Virus record (IMG/VR): IMGVR_UViG_3300025949_000084
Span: 1-25,705 of that record
Length of the DNA stretch: 25,705 bases
Strand: one strand, 5' to 3'
Source of the DNA: a virus
Numbering within the stretch: the first letter of the stretch is position 1; every line of letters starts with the position of its first letter. Positions 444-20,993 of the stretch are shown one piece after another. A model generated the notes under the pieces. The model worked only from the letters and a program-made list of their open reading frames with translations. It was not told where the DNA came from and searched no databases. The translations under genes were made by a program, and so were the position numbers.

Positions 444-1313
444 CTAGAGGCTATCCGCGAGGTAGCACTGGACGATTTGCTCGTCCTCAACCCGCATCGC
501 ACCCATGGTGAGAGCGGAGTAGATACGCCACGCGAAGCTGATGGAGGGGTCCTCCGCCACGCGCGTCCAGATGTCCTTCGCCACGTGCAGACCCAAGGCC
601 CGCTGCGTGAAGAAGAGGCACCGGATGTCGGTCCCTGGAGTGGGCTTGGTGAGCAGGGTGGACACGACCCAGTCGTACCCCATCCAGTTCTCGACGTACC
701 CCGTGTTCGCCAGTGCCTTGGCGTTCACGTAGTCGTCCGAGGTCGCCTCCGTCAGCTGGAGGAGCTTCCTCATCTGCGTCGGCCCGATGGCCGCGCACTT
801 CCGCACAGTCGGGTCGATGTTGTTGTTCAGGAACTTCTCGGTCACCGCAGTCACGACGTCGAAGCTGAACTTCTCAGCACCAGTGCCGATGGTCTGCCCC
901 GCCGGGAAGGCGATGGTGCCGCCGGTCCCGTCCACCGCGTTGCCCGTCGCAGCCGCGATGAGCAGCGAGTCGATGGTGCGCTTCATCGCCGCAGCCTGGC
1001 TGTAGGCGATAGAGCTGTTCGGGTCGATGAGCATCTGAACGATGTCCTCAGGCTCGACCGAGTCACCGGTGTTCCACGTGGTGACCGTGCTCATACGCCG
1101 GGTCCACGCTCCACCCTGGTTGTTCGGAGTTGCCTGAGCAGCAGTCGTCTTCTGCGCAGCGGTACCAGCCGAGAGGCGGTCCCAGTTGTGGTTCTCAGAC
1201 TGCCGATTGACTTCCATCACGAACGGACGGAGGCGAGCAATCAGCTGCTGAGCGAGGAACCGGACGTTGCTTTCGTACGTCCGGATATGTGCATTTGAAA
1301 TCGTAGTTGCCAT
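444..1313 (-). CDS. Major capsid protein (BPP-1-like)
   Basis: 289 aa, starting ATG with GGAG ten bases upstream. It assembles the icosahedral shell around the scaffold. Identification rests on length, position directly after a scaffold-type gene and the family look. An N-terminal segment rich in Asn/Gln/Thr (about residues 30-80) is followed by a long mixed alpha/beta body with AAAMKRTIDSLL, a Gly-rich loop (GTGGTIAFPAG), FSFDVVTAVTEKF and a C-terminal stretch WRIYSALTMGAMRVEDEQIV. No HK97 protease domain is fused. The gene has its own promoter (1446-1474), a 5' stem-loop and a terminator (387-437), as expected for a protein needed in hundreds of copies. The exact coat family assignment is from memory of BPP-1 Bbp17-like proteins and was not searched. 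Confidence 0.85.
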   Translation of the reverse strand: MATTISNAHIRTYESNVRFLAQQLIARLRPFVMEVNRQSENHNWDRLSAGTAAQKTTAAQATPNNQGGAWTRRMSTVTTWNTGDSVEPEDIVQMLIDPNSSIAYSQAAAMKRTIDSLLIAAATGNAVDGTGGTIAFPAGQTIGTGAEKFSFDVVTAVTEKFLNNNIDPTVRKCAAIGPTQMRKLLQLTEATSDDYVNAKALANTGYVENWMGYDWVVSTLLTKPTPGTDIRCLFFTQRALGLHVAKDIWTRVAEDPSISFAWRIYSALTMGAMRVEDEQIVQCYLADSL

Positions 1314-2281: not shown

Positions 2282-2531
2282 TCGAATCCTCCTCCGTCAG
2301 ACCACGTTGAATGCGTTCCAACATATCATAGACGAACAACACGCCCAGGTTGAACTGAGTCTGGTCGGAGTCCGGAACATAGATTCCACCACCTGGCGGA
2401 TTGAACGCGGTGAAGCGCAGCTCCTCCAGAAGCTGCTTCCCGCCAGGCGTATTTAATACTTCGTGAGCCAGTCTGACACGCTGATAGAACTTCTTCCGCG
2501 TTTCCCTGATGACATCCTGTCTGTGGTTCAT
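2271..2531 (-). CDS. Bbp19-like head protein
   Basis: 86 aa, joined to the portal gene by an ATGA overlap. The pattern of an N-terminal helix with LAHEVLNTPGGKQLLEEL, then FNPPGG, YVPDSDQTQFNLG and a helix (VLFVYDMLERIQ) matches my recollection of the Bbp19 family of BPP-1-type podoviruses. These are always found between portal and scaffold and have no settled function. Its place here is exactly that. It may be a minor head or connector component. Confidence 0.7.
   Translation of the reverse strand: MNHRQDVIRETRKKFYQRVRLAHEVLNTPGGKQLLEELRFTAFNPPGGGIYVPDSDQTQFNLGVLFVYDMLERIQRGLTEEDSNGG
2449..2458 (-). repeat. WATTNAATAY site 2
   Basis: Minus-strand TATTAAATAC inside the Bbp19-like gene, read as codons GTA TTA AAT ACG (Val-Leu-Asn-Thr). 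It uses A+T-ending codons unusual for this G+C-rich gene. Confidence 0.7.
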
Positions 2532-4249
2532 GACTCAAGCTGTTGGGCTCCAGTGGCGAGCCCCTGCGCCTCCATCGCAGTGGATGCTGCGTCCGCGTGA
2601 TTCTTCTGCACCTCGCTGGCCACCTGGGCCCGCTGCAGGTTCTTGTCCGCTTCCGCCTGCTTCTCCTTCGCCTCGATGGTCCGGTCATCGGCCAGCACAG
2701 TCACCGGGACACTCAAGCGGTCTGCTGCCTCCTTCATGAACTTCACCGCGTCGAAGACGTAAGTGACTTCTGGGAAGACCTTCACCAGATTCATGGCGAT
2801 GCCCGCCCAGCGCTCCATTTGAGCGACCTCCTGTGCGCGTTGTGCCTTCATCAGCGGTCCCTGGTACTCGATGTCGTACCCCAGGGGGTTCTCCAGCACC
2901 TGTCGCGGGGGTGGCTTAAACTGGTTGTACCTCGCCATCATATGGAAGAGGTTCTTGATGGCCGGAGAAAGAAGGTCATTCTGAATCCGAACGGCAGGCG
3001 GTCCAAGGACCCGGGTCATCATTTCGTACCGGACTTGCACTTCCATCGCAGTCATCGCGGGGGATTCCTTGAGCTTCAGGTCCTCCACCTTGAAGACTTC
3101 GTTCACCATCTGCCTGAGTTCAGTAATGGAGCCGTACGCTGCCTGGAAGTTGGCCTTGTTCTCAAACGCTTTCATGTCATCCATCGTTCGGACGACGTTC
3201 ATTCCCCCAGGAGTCAGGTCTGGAGGGCTGATGAGGCCCCGCTCGGTAGCAAGGATTGGGGGGTCGACTGCCTTCTCTGCTGCCAGCTTCTCCGTCTCCA
3301 TCCATGCATTCAGGTACTTGACGGTCGGGAGAGCTACGTTGCCTGGGCCCAGACCCCACTGGCTCCCGGCGAGCTTCTCCCAGCGGGCAATCATGGCCGG
3401 CATACGGTAGTAGCCGCCTTCCTTCCCTAGCTCCCCGCCTTCCCATCCCTTCTTCTCCGACTCCCCGGACGTTCCCCGGAGCACGTACTTGCAGCCCCAG
3501 GGACGCAGCTCTGGTGGCAGAGTCGTTTGGTCGCCAGGCTCCTTGATGGGCTTGCCGTCTGGCTTCAGCCGCCGGTAGACGCAGTAGATGAGGTCAATCT
3601 TCTGCCCTGACGCTTCGGCGCTTCCCGCGCGAGTCTTGATGTACTCGGGGATGGAATCCCGCCACTCCTTGTCGTTCTCCCCGCGGGAGACAATCTGTAC
3701 CGGGGTCCACTGGAGGAACTTGTAGAAGGTCTTCGGCTTCCCCCGGTAGTCCATCTCGAAATAGACGTCACGCAACGGAACCGAGGTCCAGTCCGCCCCC
3801 ATCCACTCCAGCTCCGACTCCGTCTCCAGGGTGAGGCAGCTGTTCCCGTACGCCCCCAGGTCCATGAAGCAAGAGGCCATCTCCAGGTTGAAAGCGGAGT
3901 CCTGCAGAGAGTCGTAGAGGATGTCGGTGCACTCGTCCAGCCAGGCCCGAGCATCCTTGTCGATGTCCAGCTTGGGGTCCTTGAAGACGAAGTTGAACCA
4001 GCGGATGGCCGGTGAGATGAGGGACGACTGCATGCTGGCAGTCAGAATCGAGAGTCCCTTAATCGCTGTCAGGTCCCAGATTTCAGGTCTCCGAGAGCGT
4101 ACTTCATTTTCCGAGGTGAGGGGGTTGTAGAACCCGCCGGAGCGCATGGGAGAGATGTACTGCTCAATCTCATTCCAGGTCCCTTCAATCGAGCCTTTCC
4201 GGAGAGAGAACAGCGACTCGAATCGGGCCAGAATGTCCTTACCATTCAT
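2528..4249 (-). CDS. Head-to-tail connector (portal) protein, PF12236-like
   Basis: About 573 aa. It forms the dodecameric ring through which DNA is packaged and to which the tail attaches. The N-terminus (FESLFSLRKGSIEGTWNEIEQYISP) and the segment ILTASMQSSLISPAIRWF followed by ARAWLDECTDILYDSLQDSAFN are hallmarks of podovirus head-tail connector proteins of the T7 gp8/BPP-1 type. The C-terminal third is helical and ends in a coiled-coil-prone tail (about residues 530-570, rich in Glu, Ala and Gln). I chose the ATG at 4249 because its spacing to AGAGG (eight bases) beats that of the in-frame ATG six bases earlier (4255, spacing two). Both overlap the terminase end. It ends in an ATGA junction with the Bbp19-like gene. 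Confidence 0.88.
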   Translation of the reverse strand: MNGKDILARFESLFSLRKGSIEGTWNEIEQYISPMRSGGFYNPLTSENEVRSRRPEIWDLTAIKGLSILTASMQSSLISPAIRWFNFVFKDPKLDIDKDARAWLDECTDILYDSLQDSAFNLEMASCFMDLGAYGNSCLTLETESELEWMGADWTSVPLRDVYFEMDYRGKPKTFYKFLQWTPVQIVSRGENDKEWRDSIPEYIKTRAGSAEASGQKIDLIYCVYRRLKPDGKPIKEPGDQTTLPPELRPWGCKYVLRGTSGESEKKGWEGGELGKEGGYYRMPAMIARWEKLAGSQWGLGPGNVALPTVKYLNAWMETEKLAAEKAVDPPILATERGLISPPDLTPGGMNVVRTMDDMKAFENKANFQAAYGSITELRQMVNEVFKVEDLKLKESPAMTAMEVQVRYEMMTRVLGPPAVRIQNDLLSPAIKNLFHMMARYNQFKPPPRQVLENPLGYDIEYQGPLMKAQRAQEVAQMERWAGIAMNLVKVFPEVTYVFDAVKFMKEAADRLSVPVTVLADDRTIEAKEKQAEADKNLQRAQVASEVQKNHADAASTAMEAQGLATGAQQLES

Positions 4250-5678
4250 CGTCATGACCTCTGTAGTTGTGGACTGAGGAGAAGGAACGTTTCACTTTCG
4301 GAGGCTCAACCATACGCTTGGCGCCCAGCACTTCCTCCGCACGTCCTTCTCCGACCATCAGGTAGCCAAGAGCCTCGGCCACGTGCGAGAACTTATTCTT
4401 TACGGGTTGGTCCTGGAACCGTTCTTCCCCGGTGACCTGTACCCGCTTGAAACAATACCCGCCTGTGAGGGCTTTGACTAGGGTCTTGGCGTTTGGATGA
4501 ACGACAAGAGCTGGCCGTCCTCGCATGGTAAGTCGTGTAAGGGCGGAGGCGATTGCCTCTCGTCGGAGGAGGAAGTCATTAGTGTACGCAGGGTCTGCAT
4601 GGATTCCGGAGGCAGACAGCACATCAAATGGCGTTCGCTCGTCAACTTGAGAACGCTGCATTCCAGCTGGGTCTCCCGTCCCTCGGGACTTATGACCAGC
4701 AAAAGGGGCGGAATTGAGCTTACGTCGTAGGGCCTCGGCAAAACGCACAGCTCCCATGTCTTCTGTAACGATTTCGTCGAGAATCTGAATTTGACCATCG
4801 GAGTCCTCCTGTCCAATAGCGGCTGCCGGAGTGAGGCCAAAGTCGAGGCCGTAAAGAACAACGTTAGACTTAGTAGGATACCAACGAAGATTGCGGTCAA
4901 CATGAACGCTCTCGATGAACTCTGGGATGACTGGCTTCCCATCGGAGACGTACCCGAACTCCCCGTCGACGTGGATGCGAATCCACTCCGGGGTCTTCCC
5001 CACAATCATCCGCTCATAATAATTAAGCGGTAGGTTCTCTATGTTCTCCGCGTCTGGCCCTCGGCCGCCCGGTTGCCGGAAGAGTTGCCAGGTGGAGTGC
5101 TCCTCGGCCTTCTCGATAAAGCAGTTGTAAATCCAATGGTCAACATCAGGAGGGTTAGTATCCATCCAGATGCCTGACCAGGTACATCCCCCAAGTAGTG
5201 GACCAGGGTAACGACCAACACGGCCAGTAAGTACATCAAGAATACCCTTCGCAATCTCCTTCGCTTCATTTATCCACGCCCAGGTGATTTCGAGTGAGAG
5301 CAGCTTCCCGACATCCTGCGGCCGGTCGAGAGCACGGAAGAGAATCTCCATCTCCACATCGTTGAACCGGATGGTCACCGAGTTGGAGGCTTCGTGCCAT
5401 TTGGCCTCCAACCCTCGGGGTATCCAGTCTTCGAACGTCCGCCGGGTAGTATCCTCAAGCTCTCGGTAGGTGTTTCGGATGATGACGCCACGGGTTCGGC
5501 GGACCCCGTCAGGACCTGGAGCTTGCTTCTGGGCCCTCGCGAACGCCTCCACTGAGCAAGCAGAAGACTTCCCAGAGCCGTAAGGCCCAATGCAACAGCG
5601 TACAAAAGCATCAGACTTATGAAACCGAGCCAGAGTCCGCGTAGCACGGTACCTAATCTCGCTTGATGGGTTCGGCAT
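4239..5678 (-). CDS. Terminase large subunit
   Basis: 479 aa motor-nuclease that cuts concatemers and pumps DNA through the portal. The ATPase domain has Walker A GPYGSGKSS (residues 31-39) and a Walker B strand ITWAWINEA (131-139) with Asn-Glu rather than Asp-Glu, a variant I recall in other podovirus terminases. The RNase H-like nuclease domain has its first acidic residue in LDFG (278-281), a second in GDPAG (335-339) and a last one in SHVAEALGYL (431-440). It overlaps the small-subunit gene by 26 bases and the portal gene by about a dozen, indicating a tightly coupled late operon. Whether packaging is cos-, pac- or repeat-type cannot be read from this protein by eye. Confidence 0.93.
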   Translation of the reverse strand: MPNPSSEIRYRATRTLARFHKSDAFVRCCIGPYGSGKSSACSVEAFARAQKQAPGPDGVRRTRGVIIRNTYRELEDTTRRTFEDWIPRGLEAKWHEASNSVTIRFNDVEMEILFRALDRPQDVGKLLSLEITWAWINEAKEIAKGILDVLTGRVGRYPGPLLGGCTWSGIWMDTNPPDVDHWIYNCFIEKAEEHSTWQLFRQPGGRGPDAENIENLPLNYYERMIVGKTPEWIRIHVDGEFGYVSDGKPVIPEFIESVHVDRNLRWYPTKSNVVLYGLDFGLTPAAAIGQEDSDGQIQILDEIVTEDMGAVRFAEALRRKLNSAPFAGHKSRGTGDPAGMQRSQVDERTPFDVLSASGIHADPAYTNDFLLRREAIASALTRLTMRGRPALVVHPNAKTLVKALTGGYCFKRVQVTGEERFQDQPVKNKFSHVAEALGYLMVGEGRAEEVLGAKRMVEPPKVKRSFSSVHNYRGHDDEW

Positions 5679-5979
5679 CTACGGTGGTCTCCTCCTCGTC
5701 GGCAGAGAGGTCGATGTTGAAGACCACCTGCGTTGACGTGACGTTGGCCTGTACCTCCATAGCACGCAGCTTGGGAGCCACATACTGGGCCACCTCACTG
5801 AGGCATCTAGCGGCTGTAGCGATGTCCTCCTCTCGCTCGGCCTTGTCGGCCAGGTCCAGCAGCTTGAGTCTGGGGTCCCCATACAGCTCGATAGCAGTAT
5901 TGAATTCCTGTTCGAGCCGGGACCGCATCAACTCGGTGGAGTCAGGCGTAGCGGGAGCGGGAAGTTTGCGTCGAGGCAT
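5653..5979 (-). CDS. Probable terminase small subunit
   Basis: 108 aa, ATG with AGGA five bases upstream. The protein has a central helix (RLEQEFNTAIELYGDPRLKLLDLADKAE), a pattern AARCLSEVAQYVAPKLRAMEV resembling the 'aaPYvhprLaaiE' segment of many podovirus small terminases, and an acidic C-terminal tail. This family binds the packaging site and loads the large subunit. No canonical HTH is obvious. The call depends mainly on position (first late gene, overlapping terL) and on that C-terminal pattern. It lies next to the long control region, where a packaging site could also sit. Confidence 0.65.
   Translation of the reverse strand: MPRRKLPAPATPDSTELMRSRLEQEFNTAIELYGDPRLKLLDLADKAEREEDIATAARCLSEVAQYVAPKLRAMEVQANVTSTQVVFNIDLSADEEETTVDAEPIKRD
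5897..5906 (-). repeat. WATTNAATAY site 3
   Basis: Minus-strand AATTCAATAC inside the small terminase gene, read GAA TTC AAT ACT (Glu-Phe-Asn-Thr). Confidence 0.65.
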
Positions 5980-6029
5980 GTGGTCCTATGTGGGATAGAA
6001 CTTCTACTCGGAACATTTTGCGCATAGTA

Positions 6030-6108
6030 CACCCACACCCCATATTTCAAAATTCACTTCGGGGGGTCCCACCCCTCTTCGCACGTTCCTGCGCATGGGG
6101 GGTGGGTG
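6030..6108. repeat. Competing G+C-rich inverted repeats beside the terminase genes
   Basis: CCCACCCC (6068-6075) can pair with GGGGTGGG (6099-6106), with an inner 4-bp CGCA/TGCG stem. Alternatively 6030-6043 pairs with 6095-6108 (13 of 14 positions). No T-run follows on either strand. Possible roles are a packaging-site element, a factor-dependent or bidirectional terminator, or a transcript switch. The sequence does not decide between them. Confidence 0.5.
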
Positions 6109-6136
6109 TTCCCCGAGCCCTCAGGTGGCCAGCAAC

Positions 6137-6159
6137 CCCATTCCGAATTGATTAATGGG
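6137..6159. repeat. Short inverted repeat
   Basis: CCCATT (6137-6142) and AATGGG (6154-6159) flank an 11-base A+T-rich centre, just before the first iteron cluster. It could be a protein-binding dyad. Confidence 0.3.
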
Positions 6160-6176: not shown

Positions 6177-6386
6177 ACGTGTTACACGTGTTACGCCACC
6201 TGTTACGTCTAAGCCCTTGTTATCATTGGGATAGTAACAGGTGTAACAGGTGTAACAGGTGTAAAGGTCAGTCCTGTGCTTGGAAAATCCTAGCGACTTT
6301 AAACAGGGGTCGCACCTGTTACACCTGTTACTCTCTCAATGATTACGGGACCTTGGCTGTAACGGGCCCGAGCCCTGACCTGTTAC
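6177..6386. repeat. Nine-bp iteron array (ACSTGTTAC), both orientations
   Basis: ACGTGTTAC occurs at 6177-6185 and 6186-6194, and ACCTGTTAC at 6198-6206. The inverse GTAACAGGT is repeated three times without spacing at 6234-6242, 6243-6251 and 6252-6260, with a decayed fourth unit at 6261-6268. ACCTGTTAC recurs at 6314-6322, 6323-6331 and 6378-6386. Units lie head to tail within clusters and in opposite orientation between clusters. Such spacing is typical of replication-initiator iterons or a multi-operator regulatory region. The only reading frame through it codes a repetitive Cys/Asn-rich string and is not a gene. Confidence 0.8.
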
Positions 6387-6404
6387 AGTTCGATGCCCGT
6401 CGAA

Positions 6405-6536
6405 CACACTCAGAGTGTGCGTAATAAGTTACGCTAATGTCGAAATGAATTACGCACACTGCAAGTGAATTTACGCACACAATTAGTATCAATCTCATAT
6501 TTAATTCGGTGTTTATGATTTACGCACACTGAGAGT
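6405..6536. repeat. Second iteron family (TTACGCACACT with dyad) in an A+T-rich stretch
   Basis: TTACGCACAC is found at 6450-6459, 6471-6480 and 6520-6529, and inverted at 6415-6424. Three copies continue into a dyad of the form CACT-N3-AGTG, the best being a perfect 15-base palindrome (CACACTC-A-GAGTGTG) at 6405-6419. The segment 6420-6520 is clearly richer in A+T than the genes around it and could be a DNA-unwinding element. Together with the first array this makes 6177-6536 the leading origin or master-operator candidate. Confidence 0.75.
6497..6506 (-). repeat. WATTNAATAY site 4 (intergenic)
   Basis: Minus-strand AATTAAATAT between two units of the second iteron family. This is the only copy fully outside genes and not at a start codon. 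Confidence 0.7.
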
Positions 6537-6599
6537 CCGAGAATTGATTATTGCTCGGGAATTTCGGTTGGCACCGAGTCTGCAGCTGGTCGCGGCGTC

Positions 6600-9208: not shown

Positions 9209-9519
9209 CTCTCGCACAATGGGAGTTCTTCGAGCGTCAGGGTCTCATGCGGCTAAGATGGGAGCCAGACAATGAAATGTACGATGACTCGTACATCGAC
9301 ACGTGGGACGTTTCGCTCGAGGAACGCAACAACATTCGAATTCAACTCTGGCGTGACATCGAGCGCGATGGAGTCTGGGGGCTCATTGGAGAATACCGAG
9401 TGAGCACCGATTCTCCGTGGGTCCAGGTCGATAGCGTTTGGGGCCTAATCGGTCAGGATGATGGAGGGTACCGCGACGATATCCGTCGCACGACCTATAA
9501 GGAGTTCGCACAGCTATGA
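9205..9519 (+). CDS. Protein with two WGLIG repeats, unknown function
   Basis: 104 aa, start ATG overlapping the previous stop (ATGA). The N-terminal third is Glu/Trp/Arg-rich. The C-terminal half contains DGVWGLIGEYRV and DSVWGLIGQDD, an internal repeat of VWGLIG about 23 residues apart, suggesting two copies of a short beta unit. I recall similar 'DsvWGlvG' patterns in hypothetical phage and prophage proteins. No catalytic motif is seen. Confidence 0.72.
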   Translation: MTLAQWEFFERQGLMRLRWEPDNEMYDDSYIDTWDVSLEERNNIRIQLWRDIERDGVWGLIGEYRVSTDSPWVQVDSVWGLIGQDDGGYRDDIRRTTYKEFAQL

Positions 9520-9812
9520 ACCTCAAAATCGTCAAAGCGCTTATCGCCATGATTCAGTCAGAGGACGATGAACTCGTCGCGATTGCGGCCAAGCGGTTGC
9601 CCATGCTGGAGGTTGCATTCCAGGACGGGACAATCGCCAACGGTCGCGAGAGGCTCCGCAAGCGGCGTGCATTCTGGAACGAGAGCATGCGAGAAGAGGC
9701 GGCCAAGCTGCACGCCAAAGGGTGGTCCTGGCGGCGCATCGGGAAGCGGCTGAATCTCTCAGGGTCCACGGTCCAGCGTCACCTAGAAGACCGTGGTAAG
9801 AGGGAGCCGTGA
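9516..9812 (+). CDS. Helix-turn-helix protein
   Basis: 98 aa, ATGA overlap with the previous gene and GGAG eleven bases upstream. The C-terminal 40 residues contain AAKLHAKGWSWRRIGKRLNLSGSTVQRHL, a resolvase/sigma-type helix-turn-helix ('G.S...IA..L.vS..TV.r.L'). The N-terminal part is helical (MIQSEDDELVAIAAKRLPMLEVAF). It is a likely DNA-binding regulator and the only clear small HTH in the window. It could act on the iteron region or on the 17-bp operators, which is not testable from sequence alone. Confidence 0.72.
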   Translation: MNLKIVKALIAMIQSEDDELVAIAAKRLPMLEVAFQDGTIANGRERLRKRRAFWNESMREEAAKLHAKGWSWRRIGKRLNLSGSTVQRHLEDRGKREP

Positions 9813-10004: not shown

Positions 10005-10036
10005 ACTCCCCGTGTGGCTCACCCCACACGGGGAGT
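10005..10036 (+). terminator. Hairpin terminator ending the small-gene operon
   Basis: A perfect 13-bp stem (10005-10017 with 10024-10036) and six-base loop CTCACC start ten bases after the stop codon. Only a weak T-containing tail (TGTCGTCC) follows, so it may be partly leaky. The next promoter starts 31 bases later. Confidence 0.75.
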
Positions 10037-10066
10037 TGTCGTCCATCCACTGGAAAAGTTTAGTGA

Positions 10067-10096
10067 TTGACAGGGGTTACACTGCAAGAGTAGGGT
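10067..10096 (+). promoter_or_regulatory. Promoter P2 (primase-helicase)
   Basis: TTGACA (10067-10072), 18-bp spacer, TAGGGT (10091-10096), 39 bases before the primase start. It shares TAGRGTGCTCA with the promoter at 15487. It has no copy of the 17-bp dyad. Confidence 0.75.
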
Positions 10097-10134
10097 GCTC
10101 AACTCTCACAGTGAACCACAGGAGGCAGCCCCCG

Positions 10135-12510
10135 ATGGCTCAAAAAACGAAGGGCCCGCGCCCGGAAAACGCGGACCCTTCAAGCTCTCACAGGCCCAAC
10201 AGCAGGGTTGGTCAGACGAATAGCACAACTGCTGGGGTGTCTGTCAACACCACCACACTAGCTGCACTGCAGACCAGGTTGATTCCGCTCTGTCGGCCGC
10301 TCAGCGACCAGCCCGGCTGTACCTGTCCCCACCACAATAAGGAGCGCCCCTGTGCCTCTCCCGGAAAAGCCCCCATCGAGCGAGGCTGGGCAGACCCTAG
10401 CCACGTTTCGAAGTGGCCACTCTATCCCCACAATGTTGGCGTGCGATGCGGCGCCGGCTGCGTTGTCCTCGATATTGACCCTCGCGCGGGTGGTACAGAG
10501 CGTCTTGCTCAGCTTGAACAGTCCTACGGTCGATTGCCTGCAGCTCCGGAGGTCCTTACGGGAGGTGGAGGGCGTCATCTCTACATGCGAGGCGACCCTG
10601 AACAGCTGTCTTGGAAGCTCCCAGGCGTCGAGCTGAAAGCAGCGGGAAGCCAGGTGGTGGCTCCTGGCTCCCTGCATGAGTCGGGACGAAAGTACGACTG
10701 GGCAGCTGACCGGACGCTGGACGACGTGGAGATTCCCCCGCTCCCTGACTGGCTGCGCTCTCCGCCGAGCGTGAAGGAACCGAAGCTCAAGGTTCTACCC
10801 CCTGACCCCGACCCACGCCGTGAGGTGTGGAAAGGTGATACACTCACCTGGGACGGTAATGAATATGCCCTCGACCATCTCCTGGACCGCGCACGGAAGT
10901 ATCTGGACTCAATGCCTGAGTCGGTCTCAGGTCGAGGCGGTCACGAGGTTGCTTTCCGAGTTGCGGTTGCCCTCGTCAGGGGTTTTCTGCTTCCAGAGCG
11001 AGCCGCACGAGCATCACTGGCTGAGTGGAATGAGAAGCGCTGCAAGCCCAAGTGGGGAAAGGGAGAGCTAGAGCACAAGCTCGACCAGGCCGCGACCAAG
11101 GTGCGCGAGCCTCACTGGCGCTGGGGGTACTTGCTGCACGGCACCCCCAGCTGGCCTTCCCTGGAAGAAAGCTCAGCCGAAGAAGTACATGACAGCGATG
11201 AAGATGAGGGCGAGGGACAGCCAAAATCCCGGACCATAGAGCCACGTCTCGTCTACATCTCTGCGCATGACAAGTTCATGTGGTTCGAGGAAGGAGTCCT
11301 GGTCCCCGGGTTAACGGAGTGGCAAAGCTTCTTCAACGCGAACGGCGCGGTCGGGATGCTGCAGAGCGCGGGTTATACGTTTAAGAAGGCTAGTACGTTC
11401 ATCAAGGAGAAGCGATGCCACATTGTGAAAGACTTCTCCGGACACGTCCCGACCAACCAACGCATCGTTCAGGGGGCTGACGGGAAGAGTTACCTCAATC
11501 TGCCCCAGCACCTGATGCCCACCCCGGAAGGGGGAGCTACACCACTGCTGGACCAGCTCTTCCACACCATCGCTGGAAGGGACAAAGAAGCCGAGGATTG
11601 GTTGTGGAACTGGGCAGCCTACATCGTTCAGAACCCGAACGTACTCCCGGGTATTTGCGTAGTTGTGCGCGGACCTCAGGGAGTAGGTAAGTCCAAACTC
11701 GGAGAAGCCATTGGTTATTGTCGTGGCGCTTACGTCGCCGTTTCGAATTCGATATTTCGTGAGCAGTTCAACAGTAAGTGGTCCGACGCCCGATTCGTAG
11801 CGGCAGCGGAGGTCATGCTCTCCGATTCGCGCAAGGAGCACGCAGACCGGTTCAAGGCTTGGATTACCGACCCGTTCATCGAGTACCACAAGAAGAACGT
11901 GCCGGAATTTAATATTCAGAACCGGATTGCTTGGTGGCTTTCGTCCAATGATGACAACCCGGTCGTCGTACCAGCGGGCGACCGCCGCTTCACCATCCTG
12001 GAAGCAACCCACCCGGAACCCGCCGTAAAGCAGAGTCTCATCGAAGCGTGGCGCACGTACGACCGGCGTGAGCACGAATGGCCTGAGCTGAAGCATCTCT
12101 GTCACAAGCTCCTCCATTACAAAGTAGATGTGGGAAAGGCGCGCAACCCACTCTACAACCGCATCCATGACGAACACCAGGACGCCAGCAAGTCCAGCGT
12201 GGAGATGTTCGCGGACTTCCTGCGCACCAACGGATGGCGCCCCCTGGCAGCCAGGTACCCCGTCCACGGGGCCACGGTCATGGACAACATGCCTCCCGAG
12301 CACGTCGGGGTGGACGGGGCGCTGCTCTACAAGACGTACCAGCTCTGGACCAAGGACCACGGCATGGGGGCTTACGGGTACCCCCGGTTTATCAATTCGG
12401 GAGCTCTCAAAGGGGTTTTCCACAAGACCCCCCAGCGCCGAGTGCATGGTATTCATTACCGCTTCTGGGTCCTGCCGATTGGGGTTGACCCGGAGAACGA
12501 CGCCGATTAA
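10135..12510 (+). CDS. Primase-polymerase / helicase replication protein
   Basis: 791 aa from the ATG at 10135, with AGGAGG upstream. Longer in-frame starts fall inside the terminator and promoter and are rejected. After a Ser/Asn-rich tail (1-40) comes a bifunctional primase/polymerase domain (PF09250 type): a Cys/His entry segment CTCPHHNKERPCASPGKAP (62-80), metal-binding VLDIDP with D113 and D115, GGGRHLYM (144-151) and GVELKAAGSQVVAPGS (164-179). The C-terminal half is an SF3/D5-like helicase with Walker A GPQGVGKS (513-520), an acidic strand near 552 (ARFVAAAEV), and WWLSSNDDNPVVVPAGDRRF near 599, a sensor/arginine-finger region. It would make primers and unwind DNA at the phage origin. 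It has its own promoter and so may be expressed apart from the ParB-like unit. Confidence 0.9.
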   Translation: MAQKTKGPRPENADPSSSHRPNSRVGQTNSTTAGVSVNTTTLAALQTRLIPLCRPLSDQPGCTCPHHNKERPCASPGKAPIERGWADPSHVSKWPLYPHNVGVRCGAGCVVLDIDPRAGGTERLAQLEQSYGRLPAAPEVLTGGGGRHLYMRGDPEQLSWKLPGVELKAAGSQVVAPGSLHESGRKYDWAADRTLDDVEIPPLPDWLRSPPSVKEPKLKVLPPDPDPRREVWKGDTLTWDGNEYALDHLLDRARKYLDSMPESVSGRGGHEVAFRVAVALVRGFLLPERAARASLAEWNEKRCKPKWGKGELEHKLDQAATKVREPHWRWGYLLHGTPSWPSLEESSAEEVHDSDEDEGEGQPKSRTIEPRLVYISAHDKFMWFEEGVLVPGLTEWQSFFNANGAVGMLQSAGYTFKKASTFIKEKRCHIVKDFSGHVPTNQRIVQGADGKSYLNLPQHLMPTPEGGATPLLDQLFHTIAGRDKEAEDWLWNWAAYIVQNPNVLPGICVVVRGPQGVGKSKLGEAIGYCRGAYVAVSNSIFREQFNSKWSDARFVAAAEVMLSDSRKEHADRFKAWITDPFIEYHKKNVPEFNIQNRIAWWLSSNDDNPVVVPAGDRRFTILEATHPEPAVKQSLIEAWRTYDRREHEWPELKHLCHKLLHYKVDVGKARNPLYNRIHDEHQDASKSSVEMFADFLRTNGWRPLAARYPVHGATVMDNMPPEHVGVDGALLYKTYQLWTKDHGMGAYGYPRFINSGALKGVFHKTPQRRVHGIHYRFWVLPIGVDPENDAD
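11906..11915 (+). repeat. WATTNAATAY site 6
   Basis: AATTTAATAT inside the primase-helicase gene, codons GAA TTT AAT ATT (Glu-Phe-Asn-Ile). Confidence 0.65.
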
Positions 12511-12595: not shown

Positions 12596-13315
12596 ATGGC
12601 AGGAGAGACTGAGAGCATCCACGGGTTCAAGGTTCACCCGGCGGCCAGCTTGCTGCCCAACATCGGCAAGCGGGATTTCAAGGACCTCGTCCAGGACATC
12701 AAGGAGAACGGGCTTCTCAACCCGCCCGTGGTGGCCAAGGACGGGCGCCTCCTCGACGGACGCAACCGGGTCCGGGCGTACAAGGAGGCGTTCGGCAGCG
12801 TCAAGGACATGCCCACTGAGACGTTCGAGGGGGATGACGACGACGCCAGCATCGCCCGTGCGGTCTACGGGTGGAACGTCGACCGGCGGCACCTCAACAA
12901 GAAGCAGCGCATCAGCCTGCGCATCAAGCTGCTGGAGGAGCTGGGTGCTCGGGAGTCGGAGGAGGAGACCGCCGAGGCGACCGGCAGCACCAAGGCGTCG
13001 GTGCAGAAGGTCAAGCAGGAGCGGAAGAAGAACCCCGCCAAGCACGCCAAGGCGCTCGCCGGTGACACCTCGGGGCGTGGTCGGCCGGCGGGGCGTACCT
13101 ACCCGATGCGCATCACCCTGTCCTGCGACGGGGACGACAAGCTCACCCCGTCCGAGGCGGCGCGTCAGCTCATCGAGAAGTGGCACAACGTCCCCCGTGG
13201 CTACCTCGCCAAGCTCATCGAGCAGCTCAACTCCCAGTGGACCGCGTTCCAGGAGAAGGCGGAAGAGGCTGAGGAGTCCGAGGACGAGGGCAACGGGGCG
13301 GACGTCGAGGGGTAG
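12596..13315 (+). CDS. ParB/Srx-type DNA-binding protein
   Basis: 239 aa with AGGAGGAG upstream. The N-terminal ParB-like fold is shown by VHPAASLLPNI, the helix FKDLVQDIKENGLLNPPVV (about 28-46) and LLDGRNRVRAYKE (52-64), the signature for nucleotide/DNA handling in ParB, Srx and ParB-like nucleases. A helical segment with possible HTH (about 100-135) follows, then a basic linker (GRGRPAGRTYP) and an acidic C-terminal tail. No ParA partner is in the window, so plasmid-style partition is unsupported. A transcription regulator, possibly of its own promoter, or a phage ParB-like nuclease are the alternatives. It stands alone between its promoter and a hairpin. Confidence 0.82.
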   Translation: MAGETESIHGFKVHPAASLLPNIGKRDFKDLVQDIKENGLLNPPVVAKDGRLLDGRNRVRAYKEAFGSVKDMPTETFEGDDDDASIARAVYGWNVDRRHLNKKQRISLRIKLLEELGARESEEETAEATGSTKASVQKVKQERKKNPAKHAKALAGDTSGRGRPAGRTYPMRITLSCDGDDKLTPSEAARQLIEKWHNVPRGYLAKLIEQLNSQWTAFQEKAEEAEESEDEGNGADVEG

Positions 13316-13605: not shown

Positions 13606-14105
13606 AGCCCTTCAAGCCACCCGCCGTACAGCGCGAGGCCGAGCTGGATAAGCTCGCGCTACCCGAACCGAAGAAAGCCCCGACCCCCAAGCCCCCGATG
13701 GTCATCGCTCAGCCGCGACCGGCAGCGCCGAGCCAGGCGTTCACCGTCGACTTCAACACCGTCATCACCCAGCTCCAGAATATCTGGGAGAAGGTGGTCG
13801 CCATCGAGCTGATGGTCACTCAGCAGTACAAGCCCCAGAAGGCGGCGCCCGTGGTGGACGACACCCACCCAGCGCCCCCGTACCCGAAGACCAAGAACGG
13901 TGGGCACCCCATCACGGGGAACGGGAAGGAGGCGCTGTTCATCGAGGTGCCCTCGGTGGAGCAGCTTCTCTCGGCAGCCAAGACCTGGCGGGAGGCGAAC
14001 GGCAAGGAGGCGCTCACTGCGCTGGTCAAGGAGTTCGGGGTGCTGAAAATCTCCGAGCTGACGGACGAGCAGCGGGCTGCGTTCATGGAGCGCATCCGTG
14101 GGTGA
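13602..14105 (+). CDS. Protein with Pro/Lys linker and C-terminal helical domain, unknown function
   Basis: 167 aa, ATGA overlap with the preceding gene. The first 45 residues are Pro/Lys-rich and likely unstructured. A helix-prone segment (FNTVITQLQNIWEKVVAIELMVTQQY) may oligomerise. After a second linker, the C-terminal 50 residues (SVEQLLSAAKTWREANGKEALTALVKEFGVLKISELTDEQRAAFMERI) match a helical motif common at the ends of phage recombination-associated proteins ('...G...l..Fga.klsdl...q...f'). I infer a role as an adaptor in the replication/recombination module. No enzyme motif is seen. Confidence 0.7.
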   Translation: MKPFKPPAVQREAELDKLALPEPKKAPTPKPPMVIAQPRPAAPSQAFTVDFNTVITQLQNIWEKVVAIELMVTQQYKPQKAAPVVDDTHPAPPYPKTKNGGHPITGNGKEALFIEVPSVEQLLSAAKTWREANGKEALTALVKEFGVLKISELTDEQRAAFMERIRG

Positions 14106-15270
14106 ACACGCGCCGCTCGCTCCGAGCGCTGCGCACCGTTGGGCGCGGTGTCCCGGTAGCGTTCGCATGACCAAGGACGTGAGTGGTAAGTCCAGTCGTG
14201 CGGCGCTCCGGGGCACCGCGATGCACCAGGTCCTGGAGGTCTGCCTCAAGAAGCAGAAACACCCCTCGGTGTTCCTCGACAACGTATTGAATATCGAGGA
14301 CGAGGACGTGACCTTCGATGAGGACATGGTCAAGTGGACCACGGAGGCGCTGGAGTGGGTGCAGCAGTACAAGAAAGAGCACAAGGGCTGTCACCTGATT
14401 GCGGAGGCCAAGCTCCAGGCAGGCAAGGCGCTGGACGAGGAGCTGACCGAGCACATCTGGGGGACGGCCGACGTGCTCATCTACAGCAAGGATGAGCTAG
14501 TAGTATTTGACCTCAAGGGTGGATACGTAGACGTCGAGATTCAGGACAACTACCAGCTTATTCTATATGCCATCGGGGCTGTGGCCCACTTCGAAGACGC
14601 GATGGACATTCCGCCCATCGACAACATCAAGCTGGTCATCCATCAACCACGGTCTGGGGGCGCCAAAGTCCTGGACGTTCCAAGGAGCATGCTCGATGCC
14701 TGGTCGGAGTTCCTCAAGAACGCAGCGCACGAAGCGCTCCTCCCCAACGCCCCGCTCAGAGCCTCGGACGAAGCCTGTAAGTGGTGCCCAGGACTTGGGA
14801 GGTGTCCTGCAGCGGCAGAGAGAGCTAACGAGCTGGCTCGAAACACCGACTGGCCTGAAGTGGCTGAATCAATTACCGAGGAGCAGCTCGTTCAATTACT
14901 GCACCGTGGACAGTTCATTCGGAAGTTCCTGGACGCAGCTGAAGATTACGCTGTCGGTCGTCTCGCTAACGGGTACCAGCTCCCCGGGTTCAAGCTCGTC
15001 GCCAGCAAGAAGCATCGGAAGTGGAAGGACGAGACGAAGGCAGGCGCGACTCTCGTCACGCTGATGGGCAACGACGCGGTATGGACGAAGAAGCTAGTGA
15101 CTCCGGCTCAAGCGGAGAAGCTGGTCAAGAAGTTCAAGATTCCGGACAAGGTGGCCGCGCTGGACGAGCTGTGGGAGACGCCCCAGGGTGAGCCCACTCT
15201 GGCACCCGAGGACGACCCGCGCCCACGGCTGCCCTTCCGGGAGCTGAAGGTCATCGAAGGTGGAGAATGA
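14098..15270 (+). CDS. DUF2800 Cas4/AddB-like PD-(D/E)XK nuclease
   Basis: 390 aa from GTG at 14098 (eight-base overlap upstream). It opens with PSAAHRWARCPGSVRM, the DUF2800 (PF10926) N-terminus. Nuclease motifs are H43, D125 in GTADVLIYS, D138-L-K140 in VVFDLKGG and the QxxxY motif QLILY (153-157). C18 together with C227, C230 and C236 (CKWCPGLGRC) reproduces the one-plus-three Cys arrangement that holds an iron-sulphur cluster in Cas4 and AddB nucleases. Predicted role: exonuclease trimming DNA ends for phage recombination, paired with the ssDNA-binding DUF2815 protein downstream. The C-terminal 110 residues are Lys-rich helices of unknown use. Confidence 0.88.
   Translation: MGEHAPLAPSAAHRWARCPGSVRMTKDVSGKSSRAALRGTAMHQVLEVCLKKQKHPSVFLDNVLNIEDEDVTFDEDMVKWTTEALEWVQQYKKEHKGCHLIAEAKLQAGKALDEELTEHIWGTADVLIYSKDELVVFDLKGGYVDVEIQDNYQLILYAIGAVAHFEDAMDIPPIDNIKLVIHQPRSGGAKVLDVPRSMLDAWSEFLKNAAHEALLPNAPLRASDEACKWCPGLGRCPAAAERANELARNTDWPEVAESITEEQLVQLLHRGQFIRKFLDAAEDYAVGRLANGYQLPGFKLVASKKHRKWKDETKAGATLVTLMGNDAVWTKKLVTPAQAEKLVKKFKIPDKVAALDELWETPQGEPTLAPEDDPRPRLPFRELKVIEGGE
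14285..14294 (+). repeat. WATTNAATAY site 8
   Basis: TATTGAATAT in the DUF2800 gene, codons GTA TTG AAT ATC (Val-Leu-Asn-Ile). The tail-protein copy at 24268 uses the same four codons in an unrelated protein. Confidence 0.7.
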
Positions 15271-15486: not shown

Positions 15487-15516
15487 TTGACAACAGTCCT
15501 GTTAGTCTGGTAGAGT
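15487..15516 (+). promoter_or_regulatory. Promoter P4 (DUF2815 gene)
   Basis: TTGACA (15487-15492), 18-bp spacer holding the dyad AACAGTCCTGTT, then TAGAGT (15511-15516), 29 bases before the DUF2815 start. The spacer dyad differs from the 17-bp one at P1 and P3. Confidence 0.75.
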
Positions 15517-15544
15517 GCTCACAGTAACCTCAGGAGGAGACAAC

Positions 15545-16111
15545 ATGGCGAAGAATATGAAGGCGGAACCGGTGACCATGGTGGTGCGAGGGAGGTTGGC
15601 GTTCGTCAACGTCTTCCAGCCCCGCCCGTCCATGAACCCGGGCGGCAATCCGAAGTACAGCGTATGCATCATGATTCCCAAGGACGACCCCCAGGTGAAA
15701 CGCATCCGGGAGACTCAGGCCAAGCTGCTCGACACTGAGTTCGGTCCTGGGAGCCACAAGAAGCCTGGCTTCAAAACCATCCTCCGGGATGGGGCGGAGC
15801 AGGAGGAGAAGTACCCCGAGTTCGAGGGGCACATGTTCATGAACGCCAGCTCAGACGGCAAGCCCGGTCTGGTGGACAAGGACAACAACCCCATCATCTC
15901 CAAGGAGGACTGCTACTCCGGGGTGGATGCGTTCGTCCAGGTGAACTTCTACACCTACGACAACGTGAGCAAGGGCGTGTCCGCTGGGCTCAACAACATC
16001 AAGGTCCTCCGCAAGCTGGAGGCGTTCAGCGCTCGCCAGAAGCCCGAGGCGGTGGCGTGGCCCGAGGCTCCTGACGCGGAGACGACCGAAGAGGCTGACC
16101 CGCTGGGGTAG
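15545..16111 (+). CDS. DUF2815 single-stranded DNA-binding protein
   Basis: 188 aa from the ATG at 15545, with AGGAGGAG upstream. The sequence RGRLAFVNVFQPRPSMNPGGNPKYSVCIMIPKDDPQ followed by DG...FMNASSDGKPGLVD and GVDAFVQVNFYTYDN...GVSAGLNNIKVL is diagnostic for DUF2815 (PF10991), an OB-fold ssDNA-binding family of phage replication modules. The C-terminus is acidic, as in other SSBs that recruit partners. It follows the DUF2800 nuclease as in many phage genomes, but here has its own promoter and terminator, so high-level separate expression is likely. Confidence 0.9.
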   Translation: MAKNMKAEPVTMVVRGRLAFVNVFQPRPSMNPGGNPKYSVCIMIPKDDPQVKRIRETQAKLLDTEFGPGSHKKPGFKTILRDGAEQEEKYPEFEGHMFMNASSDGKPGLVDKDNNPIISKEDCYSGVDAFVQVNFYTYDNVSKGVSAGLNNIKVLRKLEAFSARQKPEAVAWPEAPDAETTEEADPLG

Positions 16112-16983: not shown

Positions 16984-17102
16984 CGCCCGTGTGTACGCAT
17001 CCGCCGAAAGCCGGCAGAAAAATCATCCCGTCAAATGAGCCTGGGAAGTTTGTGAACGTTGTTTGTGGTGCATGCGGAGCTAGGGACCCAGACGGACCAT
17101 GA
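16875..17102 (+). CDS. Small Cys/His knuckle protein, paralogous module
   Basis: 75 aa, ATGA overlap with the preceding gene. It starts with a fourth C-x-C-x8-H-x3-C knuckle (C7, C9, H18, C22), then the PPRADPRPAPVC linker shared with the upstream gene, and ends with VVCGACGARDP, where CxxC may pair with the Cys-Thr-His near residue 41. It joins the polymerase gene by another ATGA overlap. It looks like a repeat unit split off the upstream protein. Function unknown, but co-translation with the polymerase suggests a replication accessory role. Confidence 0.72.
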   Translation: MTSSADCDCWFLRLEGRHYEDCNKGHKNPPRADPRPAPVCTHPPKAGRKIIPSNEPGKFVNVVCGACGARDPDGP

Positions 17103-18931
17103 GCTACTTCTTCGTCGACTTTGAAACCCGGAGCAAGGCCGACTTGAGGAAGGTCGGTGCGGACAACTACGCCCGGGACCCGAGCACGGAGGTCATCTCG
17201 ATTGCTTATGCGTTTGATACTGCTCCCGTTGAGCATCGCAAATTGTTTGCTGGCGCTTGGCCTCTGGATGTCACCTATGTTTCGCACAACATCGAATTCG
17301 AGCGCTCCATTCTGGCTCATCTATTCGGGGTTGTACCTCAACATTGGGTTGACACTATGGCTTTGGCTGCACAGCTATCACTACCTCTCTCGTTGGAGAA
17401 AATGGCTGAGTTCTTTGGACTAGAGAAGGACATGGAGGGCCACCGGTCGATGCTCAAGCTGAGCCGACCCCGGCGGAAGAGTCGGACCAACCATAATGAA
17501 TTCTGGGAGTACGACGACAAGCCCGACGACTTCGATGCCATGTACGACTACAACGAGTCGGACGTGGAGGTCATGCGTGCTTGCTTCTACAAGATGCTAC
17601 CGTTGTCCCAGCGTGAGCAACGCATCTGGGAGCTGACGCGGGAGATGAACGACCGTGGAATCGCAGTCGACTTGCCAGCGGTGCGCAAGGCCATGGAGCT
17701 GGTACAGCGCGAGCGTGAAACCTTACGAGACGAGTTTCAGAATCTGGTTGGCTGCGCGCCGCAGGCTAGCGTCAAGGTTGCTGCCTGGGCGGGACTGGAA
17801 GATGTCACTGCCCAGACTGTGGAGACAGCGCTCCTCGGTCCTCTGGAGGCGCCTAAGCGTCGAGCGCTGCAACTGCGTCAGCTGCTCAGCAAATCCAGTC
17901 TGGCAAAGCTGGACGCCTTCCTCCTACGTACCAGTCCTGATGGCCGCTTACGCGGGTCACTTGTTTACGCAGGGGCTCAGCGGACTGGAAGGTGGGCAAG
18001 CCGAGGGGTCCAACTTCAGAATCTTCGTCGAGGAATGGGATGGCTCTCTGAGGTTGCAGTTGATTGCCTGGTGGCGGGTTGGCAAGCGGAGTCCTGGCTC
18101 AAGCTCATGCCCGACCTCCTACGCTCCTTCATTCAGGGACCCTTCATCGTCGGAGACTTTGCGCAGATTGAGGCGCGGGTCCTAGCCTGGTTGGCCAACG
18201 AGACCAAGCTGCTGGACGAGTTCCGTAGCAAGGCCGACATCTACAAGGCGATGGCCGCGAGCATATACAATACGCCCATCGCCAAGGTCACCTCCGAGCA
18301 GCGGCGCATCGGGAAGAACACCGTGCTGGGGTGTGGCTACCAGATGGGAGCGAACAGATTCGTAGGCCAGCTGGAGCAGCAAGGGGTGAGGGATTTTCCC
18401 ATCGAGATGGCAGCGAGGGCGGTCGATGCATACCGAACGCGGTACCCAGCAATCCCAAGATTCTGGTGGCACATCAACTCCCAGGCGTTGGAGGCAATGT
18501 ATGGACATCCTAACCGATGGTTTGAAACTTGCTCCGTACGTGGCACTCGGTATCTTCGTTGCCGGTTGCCGAGTGGCCGCTTCCTGTATTACCCGAAGCC
18601 GCAGCTCGGGACCGACCCCAAGTACGGAACCGAGCGAGTGGAGTACTACGGGCAGAACACTTACACTCGTCAATGGGGGCACGTCGGCACGTACGGGGGA
18701 AAGCTTGCCGAAAATATCGTTCAAGGCACCGCGCGAGATTTGCTGGGAGAAGCCATGCTCCGCATGCGGAGCGACGGATTCATTCTCCCTCTCACCGTCC
18801 ATGATGAAATTCTTACTGAAGACGACGGGCGTCTGGGACGATTTGAAGAACTGATGCGCGCTGTCCCCGAGTGGGCATCGGGTCTACCCATCGAAGTGGA
18901 GGTGTTCCAGTGTCAACGCTACCGGAAGTGA
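17099..18931 (+). CDS. Family A DNA polymerase with 3'-5' exonuclease
   Basis: 610 aa. The proofreading domain has Exo I VDFET (6-10), Exo II SHNIEFE (62-68) and Exo III YNESDVE (151-157). The polymerase domain has motif A VGDFAQIEARVLAWL (351 on, catalytic D353), motif B RRIGKNTVLGCGY (402-414) and motif C VHDE (567-570, catalytic D569). No 5'-3' flap domain is present. Aligning motif B with E. coli Pol I (RRSAKAINFGLIY) puts Leu410, codon 18326-18328, at the Phe762 position. This residue varies among phages (Phe, Tyr or Leu), and leucine has been linked to slower, temperate-type replication. It is the replicative polymerase of the phage, translated with the knuckle protein upstream. Confidence 0.95.
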   Translation: MSYFFVDFETRSKADLRKVGADNYARDPSTEVISIAYAFDTAPVEHRKLFAGAWPLDVTYVSHNIEFERSILAHLFGVVPQHWVDTMALAAQLSLPLSLEKMAEFFGLEKDMEGHRSMLKLSRPRRKSRTNHNEFWEYDDKPDDFDAMYDYNESDVEVMRACFYKMLPLSQREQRIWELTREMNDRGIAVDLPAVRKAMELVQRERETLRDEFQNLVGCAPQASVKVAAWAGLEDVTAQTVETALLGPLEAPKRRALQLRQLLSKSSLAKLDAFLLRTSPDGRLRGSLVYAGAQRTGRWASRGVQLQNLRRGMGWLSEVAVDCLVAGWQAESWLKLMPDLLRSFIQGPFIVGDFAQIEARVLAWLANETKLLDEFRSKADIYKAMAASIYNTPIAKVTSEQRRIGKNTVLGCGYQMGANRFVGQLEQQGVRDFPIEMAARAVDAYRTRYPAIPRFWWHINSQALEAMYGHPNRWFETCSVRGTRYLRCRLPSGRFLYYPKPQLGTDPKYGTERVEYYGQNTYTRQWGHVGTYGGKLAENIVQGTARDLLGEAMLRMRSDGFILPLTVHDEILTEDDGRLGRFEELMRAVPEWASGLPIEVEVFQCQRYRK

Positions 18932-19349: not shown

Positions 19350-19660
19350 GTGAAAAGGCAATCGAGTCGTCCGTCTGTGCCTGGCTAGCCTACCAGGGCT
19401 ACATCCCGCTCAAGGTAGGGCTGGAGGGGTGGCCCGACCGGTGCGTCATCCTGGGTGCAGGACGCCACGTGTGGATGGAGTTCAAGACGCCTGAGGGGAA
19501 GCTCCGTCCACAGCAGGTCAACCGCATCGCCAAACTGCATGAGATTGGGGAGGTGATTTACGTTGTCACTAGCCTTGAAGAAGCCCAGCACTTCATTGCT
19601 GGACTCAGCGTTTCTTCACCCCTATCAACATACAGCGATACAAAGAATCGTCGCCCGTAA
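19346..19660 (+). CDS. VRR-NUC domain nuclease
   Basis: 104 aa, ATGA overlap with the upstream gene. It shows the full VRR-NUC core: an N-terminal helix SSVCAWLAYQGYIPLKV, GLEGWPDRCVIL (P30-D31), WMEFKTPEGKLRPQQ (E45, K47, Q56) and a closing strand EVIYVVTS. This is a stand-alone PD-(D/E)XK nuclease of the type linked to Holliday-junction or flap cleavage and fused or adjacent to SNF2 helicases in phages. Its 3' end overlaps the SNF2 gene by 98 bases in another frame, so the last ~33 residues are constrained by two proteins. Confidence 0.9.
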   Translation: MSEKAIESSVCAWLAYQGYIPLKVGLEGWPDRCVILGAGRHVWMEFKTPEGKLRPQQVNRIAKLHEIGEVIYVVTSLEEAQHFIAGLSVSSPLSTYSDTKNRRP

Positions 19661-20993
19661 GCAGCAGGGTGTCTTCCTCAAGATGGGGCTGGGGAAGACT
19701 GTCATCACTCTCACCGCGTTGAAGGAGCTACATGAAAGAGATGGGGTGGCAAACGTGCTCGTATTCGCTCCAGCCCGAGTTGTCGGGTATGACGTGTGGG
19801 GAGCTGAAGCGCGCCGATGGGAGCATCTCGCTTCTATGGTTGAGGTGGTTCCTCTCGTTGGACCCCCAGACCGGCGACTCGCACTACTGCATGCTGATAG
19901 CCGATGTCCCCTTAGACTCTTCGTGCTTAGTTATGACAACCTTGTCTGGCTGTGTAAGGAACTTGACCGCCACCTCAATAGTTTCTTCGATGCAATCGTC
20001 TTCGATGAACTGAGCAAGATGAAGACTCCTGGGAGCGCCCGGTTCAGGGCGGCCAGGAGCTGGCTGATGGACATCCCCATTCGCATCGGGTTGACCGGGA
20101 CTCCTGTCGGCAACCACCTGATGGACATCTGGGGCGAATTGTTTATGGTCGGCGGGAAGGAAGCGTGGGCCCCAGGTGCTGAGACCTTCACCAACTTCAA
20201 GCAGATGTTCTTCCACAACCCTGACCGCAAGGGCTGGACCTGGCTACCATTCCCCGACTCCCAGGAGAGGATTCAGAAGCGCATCAAGCCGTTCGCGTTC
20301 ACCCTCCCTGAAGTCCCCGGCGGCACACCGCTTGTCAAGGTTCTGGAACATCCGGTCGAGCTGCCAGCAAAGGTTCGAGCGCAGCAGAAGGAACTACGAA
20401 AGGCGATGCGCACAGAGCTTGCTGGCGGAATTGACCTGCGCGTTATGTCGGCAAGCGCAGTCGCTAACAAACTATTACAATTCGAATCCGGTGCAGTCTT
20501 CCTGGAGAAACAACCGGGCGAAGTGAGGGCGCGGTGGGAGAAGGTTCACGACGCCAAGATGGAGGAGCTGGATGAAATCCTGGACGAGCAACAGGGAGAG
20601 CCGGTTCTTCTGTTTTACCATTACACTCACGAAATGGTCCGTCTGCTGGAGCGCTATCCTCAAGCTCGGACCCTACCGGATATGGCCGGGCGGCAGCTTG
20701 AAAGTCTCGATGAGTGGAATCAGGGCAGATGTGAACTGCTACTGGTACACCCTCAGAGCGCGGGCTTCGGACTCAACCTCCAATCTGGGGGTTCTACAAT
20801 AGTCTGGTACACCCTGCCGTGGTCGGTCGAGCTGTACGAGCAGGCGACCGCTCGGTTGGCCAGGCAGGGGCAGAGGGCACCGTACGTGACGAGTCACGTG
20901 CTGCTAGCGGGAGGGGCGGACAGGATGGTCCTGTCGGCTCTGCGAAACAAGGGTCAGGTTCAATCAGACGTAATGAATTCTTTGGAGGTATGA
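19563..20993 (+). CDS. SNF2-family DNA helicase/translocase
   Basis: 476 aa from TTG at 19563, chosen because GGGGAGG ends nine bases upstream and the essential N-terminal HPYQ motif (19-22) would be lost with later ATGs. Helicase motifs: I MGLGKT (41-46), II DELS (148-151), III GLTGTP (176-181), V AGFGLNLQ (about 400) and VI EQATARLARQGQ (about 426). It moves on duplex DNA and probably works with the VRR-NUC nuclease in phage recombination or replication-fork processing. The 98-base out-of-frame overlap with that nuclease ensures linked expression. Confidence 0.92.
   Translation: MSLALKKPSTSLLDSAFLHPYQHTAIQRIVARKQQGVFLKMGLGKTVITLTALKELHERDGVANVLVFAPARVVGYDVWGAEARRWEHLASMVEVVPLVGPPDRRLALLHADSRCPLRLFVLSYDNLVWLCKELDRHLNSFFDAIVFDELSKMKTPGSARFRAARSWLMDIPIRIGLTGTPVGNHLMDIWGELFMVGGKEAWAPGAETFTNFKQMFFHNPDRKGWTWLPFPDSQERIQKRIKPFAFTLPEVPGGTPLVKVLEHPVELPAKVRAQQKELRKAMRTELAGGIDLRVMSASAVANKLLQFESGAVFLEKQPGEVRARWEKVHDAKMEELDEILDEQQGEPVLLFYHYTHEMVRLLERYPQARTLPDMAGRQLESLDEWNQGRCELLLVHPQSAGFGLNLQSGGSTIVWYTLPWSVELYEQATARLARQGQRAPYVTSHVLLAGGADRMVLSALRNKGQVQSDVMNSLEV

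Follow-up and report, generated by a model that had tools for sequence, protein, structure and literature searches.

Replication origins built of iterons are already known in phage satellites, and what the locus described here would add is a further example in an unusual location, not a new principle. The annotated ori of P4 contains type I repeats (TGTTCACC) in both orientations and a second, 10-bp repeat type; it lies apart from the alpha gene, and a further region, crr, lies beside that gene. In EcCICFT073 a rep-ori segment maintains a plasmid, an ability that is lost in a rep mutant and reduced on deletion of ori (PMC6092414). We matched this element to the CFT073 island through its alpA-like gene, its primase and the capsid-like genes that follow, and not through coordinates; read from the island sequence, GGTAGACAG repeats flank A+T-rich DNA directly 3′ of the primase gene. 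The Rep-ori systems of the PICIs and SaPIs have two opposed sets of iterons around an A+T-rich core, directly 3′ of rep, and a D5/DUF927/VapE-type helicase with a primase. The C-terminal domain of SaPI Rep is stated to recognize iterons that lie downstream of rep; Cch2 bound direct repeats near its own gene in vitro (PMC7581432).

The phage analyzed here, an uncultured bacterial virus, is IMG/VR record IMGVR_UViG_3300025949_000084, which spans 25.7 kb (the window in what follows, meaning this whole stretch of DNA). Like P4, it has clustered short iterons in both orientations, an A+T-rich neighborhood and a primase-helicase of its own; the P4 iteron word (CTGTTCACC) resembles that of the phage (CTGTTACACC), and both have a second repeat type (family B below). 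As P4 ori is apart from the alpha gene, so is the array here apart from the helicase gene, but P4 has two regions and the phage a single array, which is placed where the packaging and early genes diverge. The arrangement of opposed iterons and A+T-rich DNA, with its helicase and primase, is also similar to that of the PICI/SaPI origins, whereas the position is not: instead of directly following the helicase gene, the array precedes it by 3.6 kb, and most relatives have theirs beside that gene; the EcCICFT073 iterons are moreover unlike those of the phage in sequence. Since the strict layout is absent here, and is not universal elsewhere (P4 ori and locus L198, below, depart from it), our claim is that the region works like a P4-type origin, not that it belongs to the SaPI/PICI layout. 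Cch/Cch2 of SCCmec are alike in that a self-loading helicase is presumed to bind repeats close to its own gene, and in the association of a D5 helicase with a family A polymerase, but Cch2 has just three repeats, all of them short, and SCCmec is not a phage. Taking these comparisons with the evidence below, we consider this region to be quite probably a phage replication origin of the P4/SaPI/PICI type.

Two repeat families in the gap between the packaging and early arms

About 650 bp without genes (5980 to ~6633) separate the packaging arm, read leftward, from the early arm, read rightward; the rightward arm begins with short early ORFs, followed by a small HTH protein and then the replication genes (Table 1). 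The repeats lie within a stretch of about 350 bases of this gap. An earlier note on this DNA had counted at least nine ACSTGTTAC units there in clusters of alternating orientation, and exactly nine perfect copies are found (family A, 6177–6386), in the order +++ --- ++ + and mostly with 9-bp spacing. Every exact copy of this word in the contig is in the gap. One form of it, ACCTGTTAC, is alone present seven times, and 1,000 dinucleotide-shuffled versions of the gap never contained any 9-mer more than three times, so that several short iterons in two orientations are present in excess of chance. Degenerate units are possible at 6359 (GTAACGG) and 6428 (GTTACGC). A literature search with the letters of the iteron gave no match, and BLAST comparison of the array with phages and plasmids gave weak matches only.

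Family B consists of four exact copies of TTACGCACAC between 6415 and 6529, again all those in the contig, and 10-mers in the gap shuffles reached at most two copies. The number of units and a perfect 15-base palindrome, CACACTCAGAGTGTG, had been described correctly. The association of three units with a CACT-N3-AGTG dyad held exactly for two, at 6415 and 6450, and the dyad of the unit at 6520 is one base off. This second family does lie, as had been proposed, in A+T-rich DNA: of all 100-bp stretches in the window the least stable begins at 6422, and the family B stretch has the most A+T-rich 100 bp of the window (69% versus 40%). Together with the second least stable 100 bp, which overlaps and lies between the family A clusters, easily melted A+T-rich DNA is thus found both beside and among the iterons. 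Neither a DnaA-box cluster nor an IHF site was found. In viral contigs family B gave 15 other single hits, unclustered and judged to be due to chance. A division of labor between the two families is plausible, family B probably being regulatory or accessory; possibly it acts as an operator on the divergent promoters, early and late, or it may be a phage-specific promoter element or, by analogy, an accessory origin element resembling the P4 type II repeats.

A WATTNAATAY site that had been singled out in the A+T-rich stretch is indeed present (6497–6506, minus strand), but this word is strongly over-represented across the contig and not special to the gap. It occurs 17 times, counting both strands, at 14 places from 371 to 24269, where dinucleotide shuffles predict 0.03. 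Several copies serve as the spacer from ribosome-binding site to ATG (GGAGGAATTNAATATG) and others are inside coding sequence. Two further repeats were seen in the gap. Copies of the direct repeat GAATTGATTAWTG (6145–6157 and 6541–6553), 396 bp apart, flank the entire repeat region, and a 15-bp inverted repeat, ACACCCACACCCCAT (93%; arms 6029–6043 and 6095–6109, 51 bp apart), lies between the array and terS and is possibly a terminator or operator. A promoter and terminator scan gave nothing above chance, and neither an Rfam search nor a near-DNA search among phages gave a match. Four contigs of other metagenomes (L009, L036, L040 and L060) match the window exactly across the gap; with zero differences in the region they carry no evolutionary information.

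Table 1. Positions of repeats, A+T-rich DNA and genes in the window, and of three arrays in E. coli elements (numbered within each element)
Feature	Position	Strand	Remarks
Capsid	444-1313	-	Packaging arm
Portal	2528-4255	-	Packaging arm
terL	4239-5678	-	Packaging arm
Presumed terS	5653-5979	-	First gene of leftward packaging arm; by position, no family hit
Iteron cluster I	6177-6206	+	Three ACSTGTTAC (6177, 6186, 6198)
Second least stable 100 bp	6203-6302		Overlaps and lies between family A clusters
Iteron cluster II	6234-6260	-	Three inverted ACCTGTTAC (6234, 6243, 6252), 9-bp period (GTAACAGGT x3)
Iteron cluster III	6314-6331	+	Two ACCTGTTAC (6314, 6323), 9-bp period
Single iteron	6378-6386	+	ACCTGTTAC
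A+T-rich stretch	6403-6552		64% over 150 bp; proposed unwinding element
Perfect odd palindrome	6405-6419		CACACTCAGAGTGTG; overlaps inverted family B unit
Family B unit TTACGCACAC	6415-6424	-	Exact CACT-N3-AGTG dyad
Family B unit TTACGCACAC	6450-6459	+	CACTGCAAGTG dyad (exact CACT-N3-AGTG)
Family B unit TTACGCACAC	6471-6480	+	Weak dyad
Family B unit TTACGCACAC	6520-6529	+	Dyad CACTGAGAGTC, one base off
Small HTH protein	9516-9812		HTH_38/HTH_23; family match
Primase-helicase	10012-12510	+	PrimPol + DUF5906 (D5/VapE-like); proposed initiator; start codon uncertain
ParB-like protein	12596-13315		PHROG matches of modest strength, no Pfam match
Exonuclease	14098-15270	+	Rightward replication arm
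gp2.5-like SSB	15515-16111	+	Rightward replication arm
Family A DNA polymerase	17099-18931	+	Rightward replication arm
SNF2 helicase	19563-20993	+	Rightward replication arm
L248 (E. coli)	5427-5710		GTAACA array 3′ of DUF927 gene
L249 (E. coli)	5195-5596		GTGGAACA/GTGAAACA array 3′ of DUF927 gene
L250 (E. coli)	4586-5259		GTGGTACA/GTGGGACA array 3′ of DUF927 gene

The primase-helicase and arrays beside related genes

A D5/VapE/DUF927-type helicase and a primase are encoded by the same element here, since one protein matches both Prim-Pol (3e-26) and DUF5906 (5e-15); it also matches the primase of PDB entries 6k9c and 6k9e. Initiators of this class would be expected to carry a winged-helix domain for origin binding at the C terminus. 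The C-terminal domain of the P4 and CFT073 proteins is Pox_D5, whereas that of the phage protein has no Pfam hit and no phage tblastn hit. Its predicted fold has a pLDDT of 31, which is too low for use, and a MAFFT alignment with the P4 and CFT073 domains is weak, with the LY..Y region alone in common. A search for further relatives of the PrimPol helicase returned near-identical contigs only.

Arrays of the family A word were sought in viral contigs by an exact double-unit search and in genomes, one per species, by the mixed-orientation form of the word. Elements that are otherwise unrelated have mixed-orientation arrays about 0–350 bp from genes for P4-type primase-helicases. The adjacent gene is of the VapE type in genomes L207 and L241 and the L023 family of viral contigs; it is of the DUF927 type, with or without HTH_56, in genomes L215, L216, L225, L226 and L235 and viral contigs L017, L031, L037, L042 and L063; and it is a DUF5906 gene in genome L198, where the array is on the 5′ side. 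In Proteus, Xenorhabdus and Yersinia (L215, L216, L226 and L235) the array is directly 3′ of a primase of about 900 residues, and short arrays of the word adjoin PrimPol genes in L030 and L038. No helicase was detected in the piece examined at 29 of the 40 viral array loci, many of which are coding or incomplete. Some viral matches to the word fall in coding repeats, and in Mucilaginibacter, Alistipes and other Bacteroidota (L197, L199, L205 and others) many dispersed intergenic repeats of about 200 bp contain TGTAACA in mixed orientation, with no P4-type helicase found nearby; the word alone is therefore not proof of an origin.

Helicase loci not chosen by motif were also surveyed. These were fetched by helicase protein and dereplicated at 80%, with motif-selected contigs removed, and an array was scored where some 7-mer occurred at least five times within 800 bp of the gene. 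Dense short-word arrays were present 3′ of the gene at 51 of 75 loci, on the 5′ side at 3 of 71, and in none of 390 shuffles (32 of 45 and 0 of 44, respectively, for DUF927 genes; 19 of 30 and 3 of 27 for VapE genes). The array word differs by lineage: GGTGTAA, contained in the iteron GGTGTAACA of this phage, is joint second in frequency among the 7-mers of the DUF927 set, and the VapE set has mostly words other than that of this phage. Three E. coli elements have similarly built but different iteron arrays directly 3′ of DUF927 primase genes (Table 1). In plasmids pRHB04-C06_4 and pC-202212, short repeats of mixed orientation likewise form arrays 3′ of a primase-helicase gene (L425, 3901–4240; L428, 12101 and 25501); the PLSDB typing line names no replicon for either, and these arrays are candidate origins.

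A de novo scan of PrimPol phages found a mixed GGTCCGA array around A+T-rich DNA directly 3′ of the primase gene of ZQG1 and a mixed GTCCGAC array about 6.5 kb from that of RcSimone-Hastad, and found no mixed array in the examined pieces of RDJL3, PaMx28, LS06-2018-MD04, Mulvp2 and Mcat7. Among 75 terminase relatives, most loci were too short or had no array. In the podovirus L112 (terL 49%) ten GGTTACG units of mixed orientation immediately precede terS, a CCCCTAC array occupies a gene gap of L114, and upstream of the packaging genes of L169 there is a large inverted GTGTAAC arrangement (200–450) around a very A+T-rich core. The present phage is thus not alone in having an array next to packaging genes. 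Podoviruses of the BcepC6B and vB_CsaP_Ss1 type share the terminase (45%) and virion gene types; in the pieces examined, the TGTTAC word formed no mixed array.

Possible roles of the gap and a proposed mechanism

The earlier note had considered an origin and a lysis/lysogeny or early/late switch, with the two families perhaps serving one each. Family A and the adjacent A+T-rich DNA support an origin well, whereas a temperate switch is unlikely because neither an integrase nor a CI-type repressor was seen among the ORFs that could be identified in the window and the remainder of a near-identical 42.6-kb contig. The cumulative GC-skew analysis that the note had suggested gives a minimum at 8263, about 2 kb to the right of the array and not at it; this is compatible with an origin but uninformative, since gene orientation changes there too and could by itself cause the minimum.

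Control of the divergent early and late promoters, with family A as an operator array for the small HTH protein or another phage regulator, would suit the position of the array in a divergent promoter region, and an HTH_38/HTH_23 protein is a plausible DNA binder. We nevertheless think it unlikely, as the same word adjoins the primase-helicase genes of otherwise unrelated elements, and nine sites in blocks of alternating orientation over 210 bp are more than a simple operator needs. Since P4-type origins can regulate transcription too, operator and origin roles may both hold. The array also starts about 200 bp upstream of the presumed terS, which opens the packaging arm, and the comparable position of the L112 array could likewise suggest a packaging initiation (pac) site for the terminase small subunit encoded alongside. 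Such a role appears distinctly improbable, given that similar arrays lie directly 3′ of primase genes with no adjacent terminase gene in E. coli, Proteus, Xenorhabdus and Yersinia elements, and that one is present in a small plasmid. A ParB-like protein is encoded by the phage and family B has dyad symmetry, so either family might be imagined to be a partition-like or nucleoid site; but the modest PHROG matches and missing Pfam match of that protein, and the presence of family A as the iteron of elements in which no ParB was noted, make this very improbable indeed.

For the preferred reading, a replication origin, we infer that the PrimPol-D5 helicase binds the family A array and that replication starts here; this protein, one of two binding candidates in the earlier note, is the likely binder. 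It would recognize the 9-bp iterons, most likely through its C-terminal domain, assemble on the oppositely oriented clusters, melt the flanking A+T-rich DNA (6203–6302 and 6400–6560) and provide primers for the family A polymerase that the phage encodes, and the gp2.5-like protein would coat the single strands.

A broader idea, to which we give rather little credence, is that the DUF927, VapE and DUF5906 clades of P4-type helicases, though deeply divided from one another, share one origin grammar, an AGG-N-GTAAC-like iteron of about 9 bp with conserved arms and a variable middle. If true, satellites, phages and plasmids could recognize or block the origins of one another, and sequence alone could suffice to identify an origin. 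Because a near-identical iteron recurs next to genes of three helicase clades in several phyla, how these helicases choose their origins can be tested directly. For an unstudied podovirus lineage, the locus supplies a candidate origin and a candidate initiator, both open to experiment, and it suggests that a P4/PICI-style origin also serves an apparently full-sized phage, from a position between its packaging and early genes and not behind the helicase gene.
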